Positions 21,382-64,000 of a DNA stretch of 64,000 bases are shown here, piece after piece. The translations under genes and the position numbers were made by a program. How positions within the stretch are numbered: position 1 is the stretch's first letter; each line of letters starts with the position of its first letter. Below the pieces are notes generated by a model. It ran no database searches, was not told the DNA's origin, and saw only the letters and a list, made by a program, of their open reading frames with translations. The stretch covers positions 310,001 through 374,000 of the forward strand of contig NZ_JAAAMH010000001.1 of NCBI RefSeq assembly GCF_024105655.1. The letters run 5' to 3'. This stretch comes from Aliihoeflea sp. 40Bstr573 (GTDB taxonomy: Bacteria > Pseudomonadota > Alphaproteobacteria > Rhizobiales > Rhizobiaceae).

Positions 21382-21455
21382 TGGAGCGGGTAGCGGGAAT
21401 CGAACCCGCGTATTCAGCTTGGAAGGCTGCTGCTCTACCATTGAGCTATACCCGC
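21382..21455 (-). tRNA. tRNA-Gly (anticodon TCC)
   Basis: A 74-base cloverleaf with encoded CCA. The acceptor stem GCGGGTA pairs with TACCCGC, the anticodon loop is CTTCCAA giving TCC, and the T-loop is GGTTCGATTCC. It lies 33 bases downstream of tRNA-Tyr on the same strand and is probably processed from one transcript. Confidence 0.97.
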
Positions 21456-21488
21456 CTCTTGCGAGGTACAACTTTCGATGTGGGCCGG

Positions 21489-21573
21489 TGGTGGAGGGGG
21501 CTGGATTCGAACCAGCGTACGCATAGCGAACGGATTTACAGTCCGTCTCCTTTAACCACTCGGACACCCCTCC
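21489..21573 (-). tRNA. tRNA-Tyr (anticodon GTA)
   Basis: An 85-base type II tRNA with the long variable arm typical of bacterial tRNA-Tyr and an encoded CCA end. The acceptor stem is GGAGGGG, the anticodon loop is CTGTAAA giving GTA, and the T-arm reads GGTTCGAATCC. It is upstream of tRNA-Gly. Confidence 0.97.
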
Positions 21574-58279: not shown

Positions 58280-58891
58280 ATGAAGCACATGCTGGCGGGC
58301 GGTATCGCCATTCTTGCGACCACGCTCGCGGCCGACGCAGCGCAGGTGTCGCGCTCATACAGCTACTTTTCCATTGGCGGGAAGACACTGAGCGAGATCG
58401 AGACCGAATTGCAGCGTCGCGGCCCACAGCTCGGCTCGACCGGCAACAGGCATCCGGGCGCTACGCGTATGGAATTCAAGACGCGCATTGGCTATCAGGA
58501 AGGCGCAACCCGATGCAGTGTGACTGAAGCGGACGTGCGCGTTTCGGCCGAGGTTCACCTGCCGCGCTGGCGCCATCGCCGCGCGGCAGAAGTGGATACG
58601 GCGTTGATGTGGGATACGCTGTCGGCCGACATCAAGCGGCACGAGGAAGGGCACATCGTGATCGCCCGCACCTACGCGCAACGCATGGAAACGACGCTAC
58701 TCGGCGTGCGCAACGCGGCCTCCTGCCAGGACGCCGCGGCACAGGCGGAGGGCATCAGCAAGCGTCTGCTGGCCGAACATGACGCCGAGCAGGCACGATA
58801 CGACAATGTCGAAAGCATCAATTTCGAAAGCCGGATGCTGCGTCTTTTGGAATACCGCCTGCAGCAGATCGAGGCCGGACGTCAGCCCTGA
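58280..58891 (+). CDS. DUF922 secreted zinc protease-like protein
   Basis: A 203-residue periplasmic protein with a signal peptide of about 21 residues and the DUF922 metallopeptidase motif HEEGH at 121-125. AAGGAGA precedes the ATG. The final codons overlap the convergent ferredoxin gene by 10 bases. Family members are predicted zinc proteases with unknown targets. Confidence 0.9.
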
Positions 58892-59872: not shown

Positions 59873-62800
59873 ATGGCGATGAAACCGGCGACCAACAAGG
59901 AACTCGACACCGATATCGAAAAGGAGCTGGAAGAGGCTCTGGATATCGAACTCGTCATGGACGATGACGAGGCTGCCGCGCCGGAAGAGCAGAATCTCGA
60001 CATCGCCGCTTCGATGGAGGATTTCGAGGCGCAGATATCGCAGGCCGCTGAAGAACTTGCGATGGAGAATCGCGAGATCGAATCGAGCGCAGACGATGCG
60101 TCGCCCGGCGAAACCGTTGCGCCGGCTGCCGCTGCCGCCGCGCCGGCAGCGGTGGCAAAGGCCGCAAATGACGGCCCGACCCGCATTGCAGACCTCCAGC
60201 CCGTCGAACCGCAGGGCTCCAGCCGCCCCTCCGCTTTCGCGGCCGCCAACGACGACCGTCAGAAGGACTACAAGTCCTTCGTACAAAGCATCTCCAAGCC
60301 GGTCCCGAGCACGGTCTACTGGGTGGTCGCACTCCTGTCCGTCGTCTGGGCCGCATCGGGCCTGCTCGTCGGTCACCTCCTCTTCTCGCCGCAGATCTGG
60401 CAGATCGGATCGCTCGCAGGACTCATCGCCGCGCCCTATGCGCTCGGTCTCGCGCTCGGCATCGTCGTTCCCATCATCCTTTTCTGGGGTTTCGCGGTGA
60501 TGATCCGCCGCGCGCAGGAAATGCGCTATGCGGCGCAATCCATGACGGAAGTTGCCTTCCGCCTCGCCGAGCCCGAACATATCGCGACGGACCGCGTCAT
60601 GATGGTCGGCCAGGCGGTGCGCCGCGAAGTCCAGGCCATGGGTGAAGGCATCGAGCGCACGCTTGCGCGCGCCGTCGAATTGGAAACCCTCGTCCACACA
60701 GAGGTCAATGAACTCGAACGCGCCTATTCTGAAAACGAGACGCGCATCCGCGCGCTCGTCGACGGGCTCGGCAGCGAGCGGGAAGCCGTCGTCAGCCATG
60801 CCGAGCGCGTTCGCGCCTCCATTGCCGGTGCGCATGAGACGCTGAAGGACGAACTGTCCGCCGCCAGCGACGTCATCCGCCAGAACATCGTCGATGTATC
60901 CGGCAGGCTCTCCGGCACCATCGCCGACAGCGGCGCTTCGCTGATCGAACGCATGAACCAGAGCGGCTCCTCGCTGAGCGACGCGCTCGACCTGCGCATC
61001 GACACGATTTCGGACCGCATCTCGACCTCCGGCGACGCGGTGGCGAACCTCCTCGACACGCGTATCGCCTCGCTGACGGATGCGACCGACCACGCCACGC
61101 GCGCGCTGTCACAGATGCTCGACGATCGCACGACCGGAATGATCTCGCTTCTCGGCAGCTCGGCCCGCTCGCTCTCCGACGAGTTCGACACGCGCCTTCG
61201 CGACATCGAGCGCACGCTCGAGGAACGTGGCCAGTCGCTTCTTTCCCAGTTCGAGACGCGCGCCCAGGCGCTCGACACCGGCACGGAGAAGCTCAACGCC
61301 GCGCTCGAGGCCCGCGCAAAGCAGATCAACGACACGCTGATCGACCGCACCAAGGAGATCGCGCAGACCTTCACGGACGGCAAGCAGCAGGTCAACGTGC
61401 TGCTCGACGAGACGAAGGCTCGTATCGGCGCCGATTTCACCGACCTCGTCGCCTCGACTTCCTCGATGCTGGAAGAGCGCACCGCGGACTTCACCGTCAA
61501 GCTTGGCGAGAGCCGCAACGTGATCAGCGCGGCGCTCGACGACGATCTCCAGCGCCTTGCCGAAACACGCCAGGCGATGGACCATGCCATCACCAGCCAT
61601 GTCGAACGCATGGCGGAGGGGCGTTCGCTCCTCACCAACGCGCTCAACGACGACATCGTGCGCCTCGCCGACACGCAGCGCGATATGGATGTCGCGATCG
61701 AGCAACAGATCTCCGGCCTGACGGAAGGCCGCGAACGGCTCGCCATCGCGCTGAAGGAGGACATGGACCTGCTCGAAGCGACGCGTCGCGGTCTCGACGA
61801 TACCGTCTCACAGCATGTCCGCACGATCGCCGAGCGCGAATCCGACCTGACGACGGCGCTGTCTTCCGGCACTGCGCGCGTCGAGGACGCCTTCGCCAAC
61901 CAGATCGACCGAATGGCCGAGCGCCAGGCGGAACTGTCCGCAGCCATCGCGGCCGACGCGGATCGCATGGACGATCTCATCCTTCGCGGCATCGACGCGC
62001 TCAGTGCACGACAGGGAGAGTTGCAGCAGGCGATCGGTGCGGAAGTCTCGAACATCGACACGGCTTTCGACCGGCAGATCACGCGTCTGGCCGAGCGTCA
62101 GACCGAGCTTTCCGCGACCGTCGATCAGGATATGGAGCGGATTTCGGGCCTCTTCGAGCGCCAGCACGAGGCACTCGCCGCCCGTCAGAGCGAACTCGGC
62201 GACCGGATCGGGGGCGAAGTCTCGCGTATCGACACGGCCTTCGATCGCCAGATCGAACGCCTCGCTGAACGCCAGACCGGTCTTTCTGCGGCGATTGACG
62301 CCGACATGGAGCGCTTTTCGTCGGCCTTCGACCGCCAGTTCGACGCCCTCACGGCGCGTCAGAGCGAATTCGGTTCGCGAATCGAGAGCGACGTCGCTCG
62401 CGTCGACGAGGCGTTTGCACGACAGGTCGAGGCCATCGCGCTTCGCCAGTCCGAAATGGAGAACGCGGTTCATCGCGGCGCTGAGCGCTTCGGCGAACTG
62501 TTCGGCCAGCTTGCGCGCCAGCTCGGCGACCGCCAGTCGGAACTGTCCGGCGCGATCGCCGGTGATGCGCAGAAGGTCGAGGAAGTCTTCGCCCGTCACA
62601 TCGCGACCCTCGCCGCGCGCCAGGAAGAACTGACCGGGGCGATTGCCGCCGACATGGGCCGGATCGACGAGACGTTCTTGCGCCAGATCGACCTCTTCGC
62701 AGAAAAGCAGAACGAACTCGCGGCTGCGATCAACATCGACATGGACAAGGTCGAGCAGGCCTTCACGCATCATATCGAGGCACTTGGCGAACGCCGCTCG

Positions 62801-64000
62801 CTGATCACCGACGCCGTTGCCAGCGACATCGCGCGCATCGAAGATGCGTTCGGCCGTCAGACGGGCGTTATCGAGGAGCGCACCCAGACAATGGAACGCG
62901 CGCTGAGGATTGGCGTCGACAATGTTCGCGGAGCGCTCGAAAGCAGCGCCGTGGTCGTTGCCGGCTCGCTGCGCGACAAGGTGCTGGAGGCAACCGCGGC
63001 GATGGGCGAACAGGCCGGACAGGCCTTCGTCGACGTCGACCAGAAGATCGCCGACCGGGTCGAGCGCACGGCAGCGACGCTGGGCGCAAAGGCCGTCGAG
63101 ATCTCGACCCGCCTCGATGAGAGCGACCGTCAGATCGCCGGCCGGATCGAGGAGCGCGCGACCTTCATGGCGGCCCGGGCCGACGAGATTGCTTCGCGCT
63201 TCGAGGACACGGACCGCACGCTGGCAGACAGGTTCGACGAGCGCACGCAGACGCTGTTTTCCCGTGCGGCCGAGATGGTCGACCGTTTCGCCGAGGCCGA
63301 CGAATCGCTTGCAAGCCGCGCCGAAGACCGCGCGGCTGCACTCGGCGCCAAGGCCGGCGAAATTGTCGCCGCCTTCGAGACCGCCGAGCGCAGCCTGTCG
63401 TCGCGCGTCGACGACGCCGCGCAGTCGCTTGCGGCGCGCGCGGGCGATTTCGCGCAGATCGTCGAAGAGGCCGACCGAAATCTGGCCGGCAAGGCTGACG
63501 AGATTCGCGTCAGCCTTCTCTCGCGCGCCGACGAAGTCGTGTCGCGCTTCGACGACGCGGGCCAGTCGCTGGCCAACCGGACGGAAGATGCCGCTCGCAT
63601 CCTCGAAGGTCGTGCGGATGAAGTCGTCGGCCGGTTCGATGAGGCCGGCAACGCCCTTCTCTCGCGCACCGATGCAGCCGCGAACACGCTCACGGCACGC
63701 GCTGGCGACCTGTCGAACGTCTTCGCCGATGCCGACCGCCAGATCGTCATACGCCTCGACGAGACGCAGGCCGCATTATCGGCGCGCGCCGGCGAGATTG
63801 CAGGCGTCCTCGATGGTTCGGACGAGCGCCTGCAGGAGCGCGCCAACGAACTCGCGCGCACCTTCGACATGGCCGAGCAGCGGATCATGGCGCGCACGCA
63901 CCAGACTTCCGCCGAGCTCGACGCTCGCGCGGCGGCGATCGCCGAAGCGCTGGCCGCAGCCGACCAGGCGCTGGCCGACCGCACCAGCCTCTTGGCGTCG
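59873..64000 (+). CDS. Growth pole ring-type giant coiled-coil membrane protein (N-terminal 1376 residues)
   Basis: The open frame runs off the window end. An acidic cytoplasmic N-terminus (about 1-140) is followed by two to three membrane segments at about 148-171 and 183-211, then continuous coiled coil. This layout matches the very long apolipoprotein/kinesin-like proteins of Rhizobiales, of which the growth pole ring protein GPR (Agrobacterium) and RgsE (Sinorhizobium) organise unipolar growth. From 61478 the coil is strictly periodic: three 36-residue units, then thirteen 29-residue units (61802-62932) with the pattern AF-x-RQ-x5-AERQ-x-EL, a 31-residue linker, then at least ten 29-residue units of another pattern from 63026. 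The ATG at 59873 follows GGTAGAGCGGC. Functional assignment rests on layout and family recognition. Confidence 0.85.
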   Translation, partial: MAMKPATNKELDTDIEKELEEALDIELVMDDDEAAAPEEQNLDIAASMEDFEAQISQAAEELAMENREIESSADDASPGETVAPAAAAAAPAAVAKAANDGPTRIADLQPVEPQGSSRPSAFAAANDDRQKDYKSFVQSISKPVPSTVYWVVALLSVVWAASGLLVGHLLFSPQIWQIGSLAGLIAAPYALGLALGIVVPIILFWGFAVMIRRAQEMRYAAQSMTEVAFRLAEPEHIATDRVMMVGQAVRREVQAMGEGIERTLARAVELETLVHTEVNELERAYSENETRIRALVDGLGSEREAVVSHAERVRASIAGAHETLKDELSAASDVIRQNIVDVSGRLSGTIADSGASLIERMNQSGSSLSDALDLRIDTISDRISTSGDAVANLLDTRIASLTDATDHATRALSQMLDDRTTGMISLLGSSARSLSDEFDTRLRDIERTLEERGQSLLSQFETRAQALDTGTEKLNAALEARAKQINDTLIDRTKEIAQTFTDGKQQVNVLLDETKARIGADFTDLVASTSSMLEERTADFTVKLGESRNVISAALDDDLQRLAETRQAMDHAITSHVERMAEGRSLLTNALNDDIVRLADTQRDMDVAIEQQISGLTEGRERLAIALKEDMDLLEATRRGLDDTVSQHVRTIAERESDLTTALSSGTARVEDAFANQIDRMAERQAELSAAIAADADRMDDLILRGIDALSARQGELQQAIGAEVSNIDTAFDRQITRLAERQTELSATVDQDMERISGLFERQHEALAARQSELGDRIGGEVSRIDTAFDRQIERLAERQTGLSAAIDADMERFSSAFDRQFDALTARQSEFGSRIESDVARVDEAFARQVEAIALRQSEMENAVHRGAERFGELFGQLARQLGDRQSELSGAIAGDAQKVEEVFARHIATLAARQEELTGAIAADMGRIDETFLRQIDLFAEKQNELAAAINIDMDKVEQAFTHHIEALGERRSLITDAVASDIARIEDAFGRQTGVIEERTQTMERALRIGVDNVRGALESSAVVVAGSLRDKVLEATAAMGEQAGQAFVDVDQKIADRVERTAATLGAKAVEISTRLDESDRQIAGRIEERATFMAARADEIASRFEDTDRTLADRFDERTQTLFSRAAEMVDRFAEADESLASRAEDRAAALGAKAGEIVAAFETAERSLSSRVDDAAQSLAARAGDFAQIVEEADRNLAGKADEIRVSLLSRADEVVSRFDDAGQSLANRTEDAARILEGRADEVVGRFDEAGNALLSRTDAAANTLTARAGDLSNVFADADRQIVIRLDETQAALSARAGEIAGVLDGSDERLQERANELARTFDMAEQRIMARTHQTSAELDARAAAIAEALAAADQALADRTSLLAS
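61802..62932 (+). repeat. Thirteen tandem 87-bp units, type A (29 residues each)
   Basis: Each unit encodes 29 residues around AFDRQIERLAERQTELSAAI (first two-thirds) and an acidic-basic end such as DADMERFSS. Units begin at 61802, 61889, 61976 and so on every 87 bases to 62846. Third positions differ between units, so the period is kept by protein selection rather than recent duplication. Three 108-bp units (36 residues, a 29-mer plus a heptad) precede it at 61478, 61586 and 61694. Confidence 0.9.
63026..63982 (+). repeat. Eleven tandem 87-bp units, type B (29 residues each)
   Basis: Units start at 63026, 63113, 63200 and every 87 bases after. The pattern is F-D-x-A-D-x-x-L-x-x-R near the start and L-x-x-R-A-x-E-I near the end, e.g. 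FDEAGNALLSRTDAAANTLT. The last unit is weakly conserved. Same 29-residue period as the type A tract but a different sequence. Confidence 0.88.

Follow-up and report, generated by a model that had tools for sequence, protein, structure and literature searches.

The stretch of DNA analyzed here, referred to as the window, is 64,000 nucleotides (nt) in length and comes from Aliihoeflea sp. 40Bstr573 (contig NZ_JAAAMH010000001.1, positions 310,001–374,000). A gpr/rgsE-like gene opens at window position 59873 on the + strand, and its open reading frame leaves the window at amino acid (aa) residue 1376. When extended into the genome beyond the window, the full frame is 1,956 codons. A large part of the predicted protein consists of arrays of repeat units. 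These arrays are probably spacers that are free in length and locked in helical phase, and that lie between conserved nodes on a nearly straight coil, in the membrane-anchored cytoplasmic arm of a putative GPR/RgsE protein. The features of the gene in the window are as follows.

59873–64000, + strand: gpr/rgsE-like gene, aa 1–1376 of 1,956 (open frame; PF01442 match at 94.3 bits)
60308–60514, + strand: two hydrophobic, probably membrane-spanning segments, aa 146–172 and 178–214 (Kyte-Doolittle)
60470–60802, + strand: membrane-proximal conserved node M, aa ~200–310 (conservation scan)
60560–61477, + strand: N-terminal rod, aa 230–535, with lags of 11, 22 and 33 residues (lag spectrum; hydrophobic period 3.644)
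61478–61801, + strand: three 36-residue units, aa 536–643 (self-comparison by lag)
61802–62932, + strand: array 1, thirteen 29-residue units, aa 644–1020 (self-comparison by lag)
62813–63022, + strand: conserved node J, aa ~981–1050, including the "linker" at 1021–1051 (conservation scan)
63026–63808, + strand: array 2, nine strict 29-residue units, aa 1052–1312 (unit-consensus scores 69–82, exact 29-residue steps)
63809–63862, + strand: 18-residue short unit, aa 1313–1330, which breaks the 29-residue register (lags 47 and 18 beat 29)
63863–64000, + strand: weaker continuation of array 2, aa 1331–1376 (unit-consensus score 48 at aa 1331 and 27 at aa 1360)

Architecture and family assignment

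The two hydrophobic segments display peaks of 2.14 and 2.62 (Kyte-Doolittle 19-residue means). They are followed by approximately 1,530 residues that are nearly proline-free, then by a linker rich in proline and, at the C-terminus, a conserved domain. Three prolines are found in aa 230–1755, none in aa 536–1312 and 13 in aa 1756–1840. With 1,530 residues, the arm has a computed length of ~227 nm if it is fully helical. The Pfam apolipoprotein profile PF01442 matches the arm in five stretches with 94.3 bits, where the cut-off is 90.

Two N-terminal hydrophobic segments, PF01442 over the arm, and a stretch rich in proline ahead of a conserved C-terminal domain are features of GPR/RgsE. The first-pass annotation, made from the nt sequence alone, had assigned the protein to this growth-pole family. 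Support for the assignment, and thus for the family name used here, comes from the protein's architecture and from how its C-terminal domain is distributed among genomes. Of 101 family genomes, 99 carry a single match to the C-terminal 117 residues; such a match is also present in 142 of 150 order genomes, one of which has an additional weak one. A profile built for the region hits 66 of the 190 class genomes.

Two C-terminal domain matches per genome are seen in G105 and G348, which may represent a paralogue. The domain was not found in eight of the 150 order genomes (G128, G138, G170, G179, G214, G215, G229 and G236); three of these are from family f36 and two from f23, and several are incomplete assemblies. 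Loss of the domain in families f36 and f23 is possible.

The orthologues compared below are from a set of 221 (the window protein, 80 from its family, 60 from the genus and order, and 80 named sequences), where the gene frame at each locus was picked by the C-terminal domain. Four short fragments and five duplicates were dropped, which left 212 orthologues. The frame of the congener Aliihoeflea aestuarii (L143) is identical to that of congener G101.

The repeat arrays

Three 36-residue units followed by 13 consecutive 29-residue units without insertion had been described in the first-pass annotation, and they are present at aa 536–643 and 644–1020, respectively, with scores far above those of shuffled sequences. 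At lag 29, the mean BLOSUM62 score exceeds that of 500 shuffles by 18.8 standard deviations in array 1 and by 16.8 in array 2; at lag 36, the excess in the 36-residue units is 9.1 standard deviations. The 31-residue stretch said to follow array 1 lies at aa 1021–1051 as described. Array 2, however, is shorter than the 11 strict units claimed for it. Nine units are in register (aa 1052–1312), and the next good unit match is 47 residues on (29+18), at aa 1331, such that the last two unit boundaries that had been drawn are out of register.

In array 1 the score at lag 58 (1.95) is higher than that at lag 29 (1.46). This is due to units 2–9, which alternate between two types and thus form 58-residue pairs; identity is 0.460 between units of the same parity and 0.336 between units of the other. 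An alternation across all 13 units is not significant, as 167 of 2000 permutations of the unit order reach it.

Where residues are identical at lag 29, their codons agree with a frequency of 0.555, and 0.564 is expected from the codon usage of the gene. At lag 58 the values are 0.556 and 0.553. Codon agreement is thus no higher than codon usage predicts, and the units are therefore old and have not been homogenized. The silent divergence noted in the first-pass annotation is borne out, and silent sites between units are saturated. The unit-to-unit DNA identity is only ~50–55%, and Tandem Repeats Finder detects two short arrays in the window, neither of which is inside the gpr/rgsE-like gene. 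Because silent sites are saturated, selection at the protein level must hold the pattern in this gene, as had been proposed.

Coil geometry

The hydrophobic period is 3.622 residues per turn in array 1 and 3.620 in array 2, and 29/8 is 3.625. Therefore 29 residues represent 7+11+11 residues in eight turns of a nearly straight coil, and the geometry originally suggested for the 29-residue unit holds. Elsewhere the period is 3.578 (36-residue units), 3.644 (N-terminal rod) and 3.585 (close to the C-terminus). Core residues in array 1 are at unit positions 2, 6, 9, 13, 16, 20, 24 and 27, a spacing of 4,3,4,3,4,4,3,4. The arrays display both the period (3.5–3.67) and the 3/4 core spacing of a mixed heptad/hendecad coil. 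Position 13 of array 1 is Gln in 10 of 13 units and forms a polar layer within the core, and array 2 has a core position that is occupied by Ala in all nine units. The hydrophobic stripe of the arm is narrow and the net charge is negative, which is unlike a typical lipid-binding helix.

AlphaFold models aa 530–1376 as all helix, with low confidence, in segments of 134, 218, 130, 171 and 172 residues that are separated by four short breaks. One break is at aa 1025–1029, inside the 31-residue "linker". Both arrays display a regular charge pattern with harmonics of 29, and a crude charge-stagger scan for lateral register gave no clear register. In the cell the arm would form a parallel coiled coil, judging from the sequence pattern.

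Repeat modules and arm length in relatives

A self-match at lag 29 is found in 162 of the 212 orthologues, at lag 22 in 207, at lag 11 in 206, at lag 36 in 103 and at lag 40 in 144. The dominant lag varies by genus, with 22, 36, 40, 44, 62 and 65 among others. In 20 long-frame homologues outside the order, 25 or one of its multiples is the top lag in 15, and the hydrophobic period is 3.558–3.576 in 16 of 20 (25/7 is 3.571) and 3.618–3.634 in the other four. Since the dominant lags differ between genera and outside the order, 29 is one module among several and is ruled out as a constant of the family. The 29-residue phase expected in homologues is thus common, but is neither general nor dominant. 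The modules are sums of 7 and 11. In the homologues L225, L228, L229 and L231–L242, from outside the order, a 25-residue unit (7+7+11) is dominant with a period of ~3.57, which is another module in the same kind of arm.

The length of the arm, whose end was taken as the first proline-rich window, ranges from 457 to 2,548 residues in the orthologues. Compared with the window protein, its sister species in the genus are missing blocks of exactly 58, 29 or 36 residues. Unit counts, which the first-pass annotation had proposed to compare among homologues, are therefore not conserved even within the genus.

Helical phase of indels and tandem copies

Insertions and deletions (indels) were counted in the 52 of 55 disjoint best orthologue pairs that are 75% identical or more. 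The arm has 70 indels of five residues or longer (one of three residues was excluded). Residues 1–225, and the part of the protein that begins with the proline-rich linker, were taken as outside the arm. An indel was considered in phase if its length differs by no more than half a residue from a whole number of turns of 3.625 residues, and 31% of the lengths from 5 to 159 qualify. By this measure 64 of 70 indels in the arm are in phase, versus 11 of 55 outside it. In the length range 10–30, every one of the 30 arm indels can be written as a sum of 7s and 11s, versus 3 of 19 outside.

Tandem copies that are visible in the DNA (at least 80% identity over at least 60 bases) were compared with a lattice of lengths 7a+11b, where a ≤ 2b and 7 itself is allowed. 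The lattice was fixed post hoc and covers 46% of the lengths 5–100. Of the 147 lineage-lag events of 5–100 residues, 139 are on the lattice (null 0.46). Seven of the eight misses are at one low-complexity protein, L035, and the eighth is a lag of 24 in L124. By the strict 3.625 phase, a less flexible test, 107 of 147 copies agree, and 138 of 147 agree if multiples of 11 are allowed, which is done because purely hendecad stretches run at 3.667. High-identity self-matches at the protein level gave an unclean test of phase (R 0.51, with the best period lying at the limit of the scanned range); this set is rich in small low-complexity lags and is superseded by the indel and DNA-copy tests.

Near aa 978 of L035 there is a low-complexity spot with DNA self-matches at many small lags. 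L173 and L166 differ by 379 residues, a length off the phase lattice, in proteins that are otherwise 97% identical; this is perhaps an assembly fault, although unproved.

Conserved nodes and the spacers between them

Scanning of the protein in 30-residue windows against 111–112 representatives shows conservation, to varying degrees, at aa 200–310, ~440–500, 981–1050, 1441–1470, 1631–1755 and 1831–1956. The arrays between these stretches are at background, with a best-match identity of ~0.3 and no conservation between genera. At node M, the scan windows at aa 211, 251 and 301 find a match of at least 50% identity in 85, 89 and 63% of 111 representatives. At node J, those at aa 981, 1001 and 1021 find one in 31, 41 and 30%, and array 1 windows in only 0–2%. 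The "two functional rods" of the first-pass annotation are therefore better described as a pair of spacer arrays, both variable, that flank a conserved node, with the linker between them conserved in part of the family.

The distance from node J to node K (aa 1441–1470) takes 27 distinct values of 107–793 residues in the 33 of 112 representatives that pass the identity filter. The phase coherence (R) of these distances is 0.87 at 3.6275 residues per turn, a value not attained by any of 1000 jittered sets. For distances that span the proline-rich linker, R is 0.12–0.14, and all 1000 jittered sets attain it.

Proposed function of the arm

The architecture, the hydrophobic period, the saturation of silent sites, the phase rule, the conservation of nodes and the variation in length are established at the level of sequence. 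The N-terminal helices would anchor the protein in the inner membrane, and the arm would be a nearly straight coiled coil of heptads and hendecads. The conserved nodes probably carry contacts to partners or within an oligomer. The repeat arrays, free in sequence and in length, would hold the nodes apart, and array blocks would be gained or lost almost only by whole helical turns, which keeps the hydrophobic stripe continuous. As 29 residues are exactly eight turns near the pitch of an undistorted helix, added units would lengthen the arm without turning the nodes. The benefit may be length without twist.

A more tentative proposal, and one that is less likely than not, is that the arm represents a third class of coiled-coil spacer, in which neither sequence nor length is conserved and the absolute rotational phase between nodes is conserved over hundreds of residues. 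This could be due to the coil running at the natural pitch of the alpha-helix, which uncouples length from twist. If so, evolution could retune the length of the arm and the binding sites would not be re-oriented. GPR/RgsE is central to unipolar growth in rhizobia, and its arm has so far been read as apolipoprotein-like. The phase rule offers a concrete structural model, accounts for the approximately five-fold variation in arm length in one family, and predicts which internal deletions are tolerated.

Several observations weigh against spacers of locked phase. Six arm indels are off phase, those of 55, 132 and 154 residues (multiples of 11) and those of 64, 180 and 379. Node J is recognizable at 50% identity in at most 41% of representatives. 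There is no clear phase coherence between nodes M and J, where R is reached by 655 of 1000 jittered sets in the strict set and by 11 of 1000 in a larger one. Chains simulated from the observed indel lengths alone average an R of 0.81 for J–K, and 43 of 400 runs attain the observed value. AlphaFold confidence is low, with a mean predicted local distance difference test score (pLDDT) of 57 and a predicted template modeling score (pTM) of 0.21 for the arrays, and 55 and 0.36 for the C-terminal region. In A. tumefaciens, one small GPR deletion complemented well and formed foci, contrary to a strict rule unless its length fitted (PMC8262873).

Alternative explanations

The pattern could be a by-product of mutation, where unequal recombination takes place between repeats and any long coiled coil keeps its stripe, with no special function in spacing or phase. 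This is unlikely, although part of it may apply. Many recent indels are near copies of a neighboring sequence; DNA identity at the lag of the indel is 0.80–0.96 for a good part of them, in pairs with at least 90% identity. The simulated indel chains also reproduce much of the J–K coherence, and because of this the J–K phase lock needs no extra selection and may follow from the rule for individual indels. With extra turnover, the chains reach the observed R in 1 of 400 runs; in another run of the simulation the counts were 40 of 400 and, with extra turnover, 0 of 400. A constraint on J–K phase beyond the per-indel rule is possible but not proved, and the phase rule itself may be in part mutational. 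However, even though the units of the window gene share only about half of their DNA sequence and their silent sites are saturated, the sister species differ by exactly 58, 29 and 36 residues. In addition, a variety of module lengths has arisen in separate lineages, almost all of them on the 7+11 lattice, and recombination alone is insufficient to explain this.

Amphipathic helices that bind lipid on or around the membrane at the growing pole, as proposed in the published reading of GPR, are an improbable explanation of the arm. PF01442 is above its cut-off here, and published deletions of the apolipoprotein-like regions disturb cell shape (PMC8262873). However, the repeat region is devoid of proline, as is nearly all of the arm, and the stripe is narrow with a net negative charge. 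A lipid-binding score with cut-offs of 0.68 and 1.34 is above 0.68 in 57 of 1512 scan windows and above 1.34 in none. Hendecad coils could also match a profile of 11/22-residue units without common descent.

It is very doubtful that the 29-residue period is a lateral ladder, where the regular lateral contacts suggested in the first-pass annotation assemble the arms into a ring. The regular charges, with harmonics of 29 in each array, are consistent with it, and coils of 29 residues build filaments in SF-assemblin (PMC6070942). However, the period differs between genera while the family persists, and presumably the ring as well. Parallel staggers of array 2 by multiples of 29 are among the least favorable, by a crude charge score for which such a result is automatic in repeats. 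Further, the paired foci of A. tumefaciens form without several internal or C-terminal pieces of GPR (PMC8262873).

A fixed-length ruler that sets the size of the ring or the distance from the pole is ruled out by the arm length, which varies several-fold and changes within the genus, even though ~227 nm is near the published 200-nm ring of A. tumefaciens (PMC8262873).

The phase-locked spacers are the preferred explanation of the arm.

Other matches and neighboring loci

Profile matches to ZorA (32 bits against a cut-off of 250, and 18 against 190) and to PspA (24 bits, cut-off 850) are taken to be compositional. The 32-bit match to the ZorA defense protein is at aa 976–1246 and is probably due to both having long helical tails. 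A search for relatives of solved structure found none at E 0.01 for the array region, and for the C-terminal profile found one weak match only, to apolipoprotein A-I (E 0.75). Upstream of the gene, a 203-residue frame at window positions 58280–58891 (+ strand) has an HEEGH stretch which by eye resembles a metalloprotease motif. Adjoining genes for tRNA-Gly (tcc) and tRNA-Tyr (gta) are at 21382–21573 (– strand).

Comparison with known systems

Spacers of conserved length, length steps in SMC arms, 29-residue coils, and hendecad rods in polar growth are already known. A search that covered mainly papers free of subscription found none on indels in hendecad coiled coils or on coiled-coil indels in multiples of seven.

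Apolipoproteins A1, A4 and E are built of 22-residue units punctuated by proline. The window protein is similar in its PF01442 match above cut-off, but its unit is 29 or 36 residues and aa 536–1312 are without proline.

GPR (A. tumefaciens, Atu1348) and RgsE (S. meliloti, SMc00190) are likewise very large, with two N-terminal membrane segments, a long helical cytoplasmic part with PF01442, a proline-rich stretch and an essential C-terminal part (PMC8262873; PMC7327166). Membrane anchoring and cytoplasmic location of RgsE have been verified experimentally, and RgsE shows two-hybrid contacts with RgsA, RgsS and TolQ (PMC7327166). Unlike the description given here, the published account, in the portions available, is of apolipoprotein-like domains and two 21-residue coiled coils and not of repeats; the words "repeat", "periodic" and "heptad" do not occur in the available text of PMC8262873. 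That paper argues for a folded arm, since an extended one would reach 600 nm; at the textbook rise of ~0.15 nm per residue, however, 1,700 helical residues give ~255 nm. An N-terminal tag on GPR would show only the N-terminal end and not the extent of the arm. The internal deletions of GPR at aa 232–494 and 1036–1381 are 263 and 346 residues in length, and smaller ones are 20–22 (PMC8262873). The two large deletions are each ~0.45 turn off phase, by arithmetic, if a pitch of 3.625 applies to GPR. On the tentative reading of the arm as a third class of spacer, loss of function in published GPR deletions may have been caused partly by a break in phase and not by removal of a lipid-binding domain, and the out-of-phase deletions deserve another look.

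In SF-assemblin, a segmented coiled coil has been predicted on the basis of a repeat of 29 residues (PMC6070942). The protein differs in having a helical domain of ~240 residues, in forming striated fibers of algae and protists, and in having no membrane anchor. Scy and FilP of Streptomyces are closer in setting, as they are long hendecad-rich rods with Ala-rich cores in polar-growing bacteria, and such cores are described for two-stranded hendecad coils (PMC9858780). They differ in having an N-terminal DivIVA-like GYD motif, and no membrane anchor is mentioned in the available part of that paper. The GYD motif of the DivIVA-like domain is not found in the 1,956 residues of the window protein. 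Scy has a 51-residue unit.

Giantin-type spacers also place a coiled coil of divergent sequence between functional parts, but there the length is kept, whereas in the family of the window protein phase is kept and length varies (PMC5082667). In SMC arms, length is limited by phase and not by sequence, as appears to be the case here (PMC5344682). However, the SMC steps are ~100 residues and follow the super-helical phase of a heptad coil, whereas the steps in this family are whole turns of a nearly straight coil. The GPR/RgsE arm may be a natural case where, unlike SMC arms, the length and the twist of a coiled coil are uncoupled.

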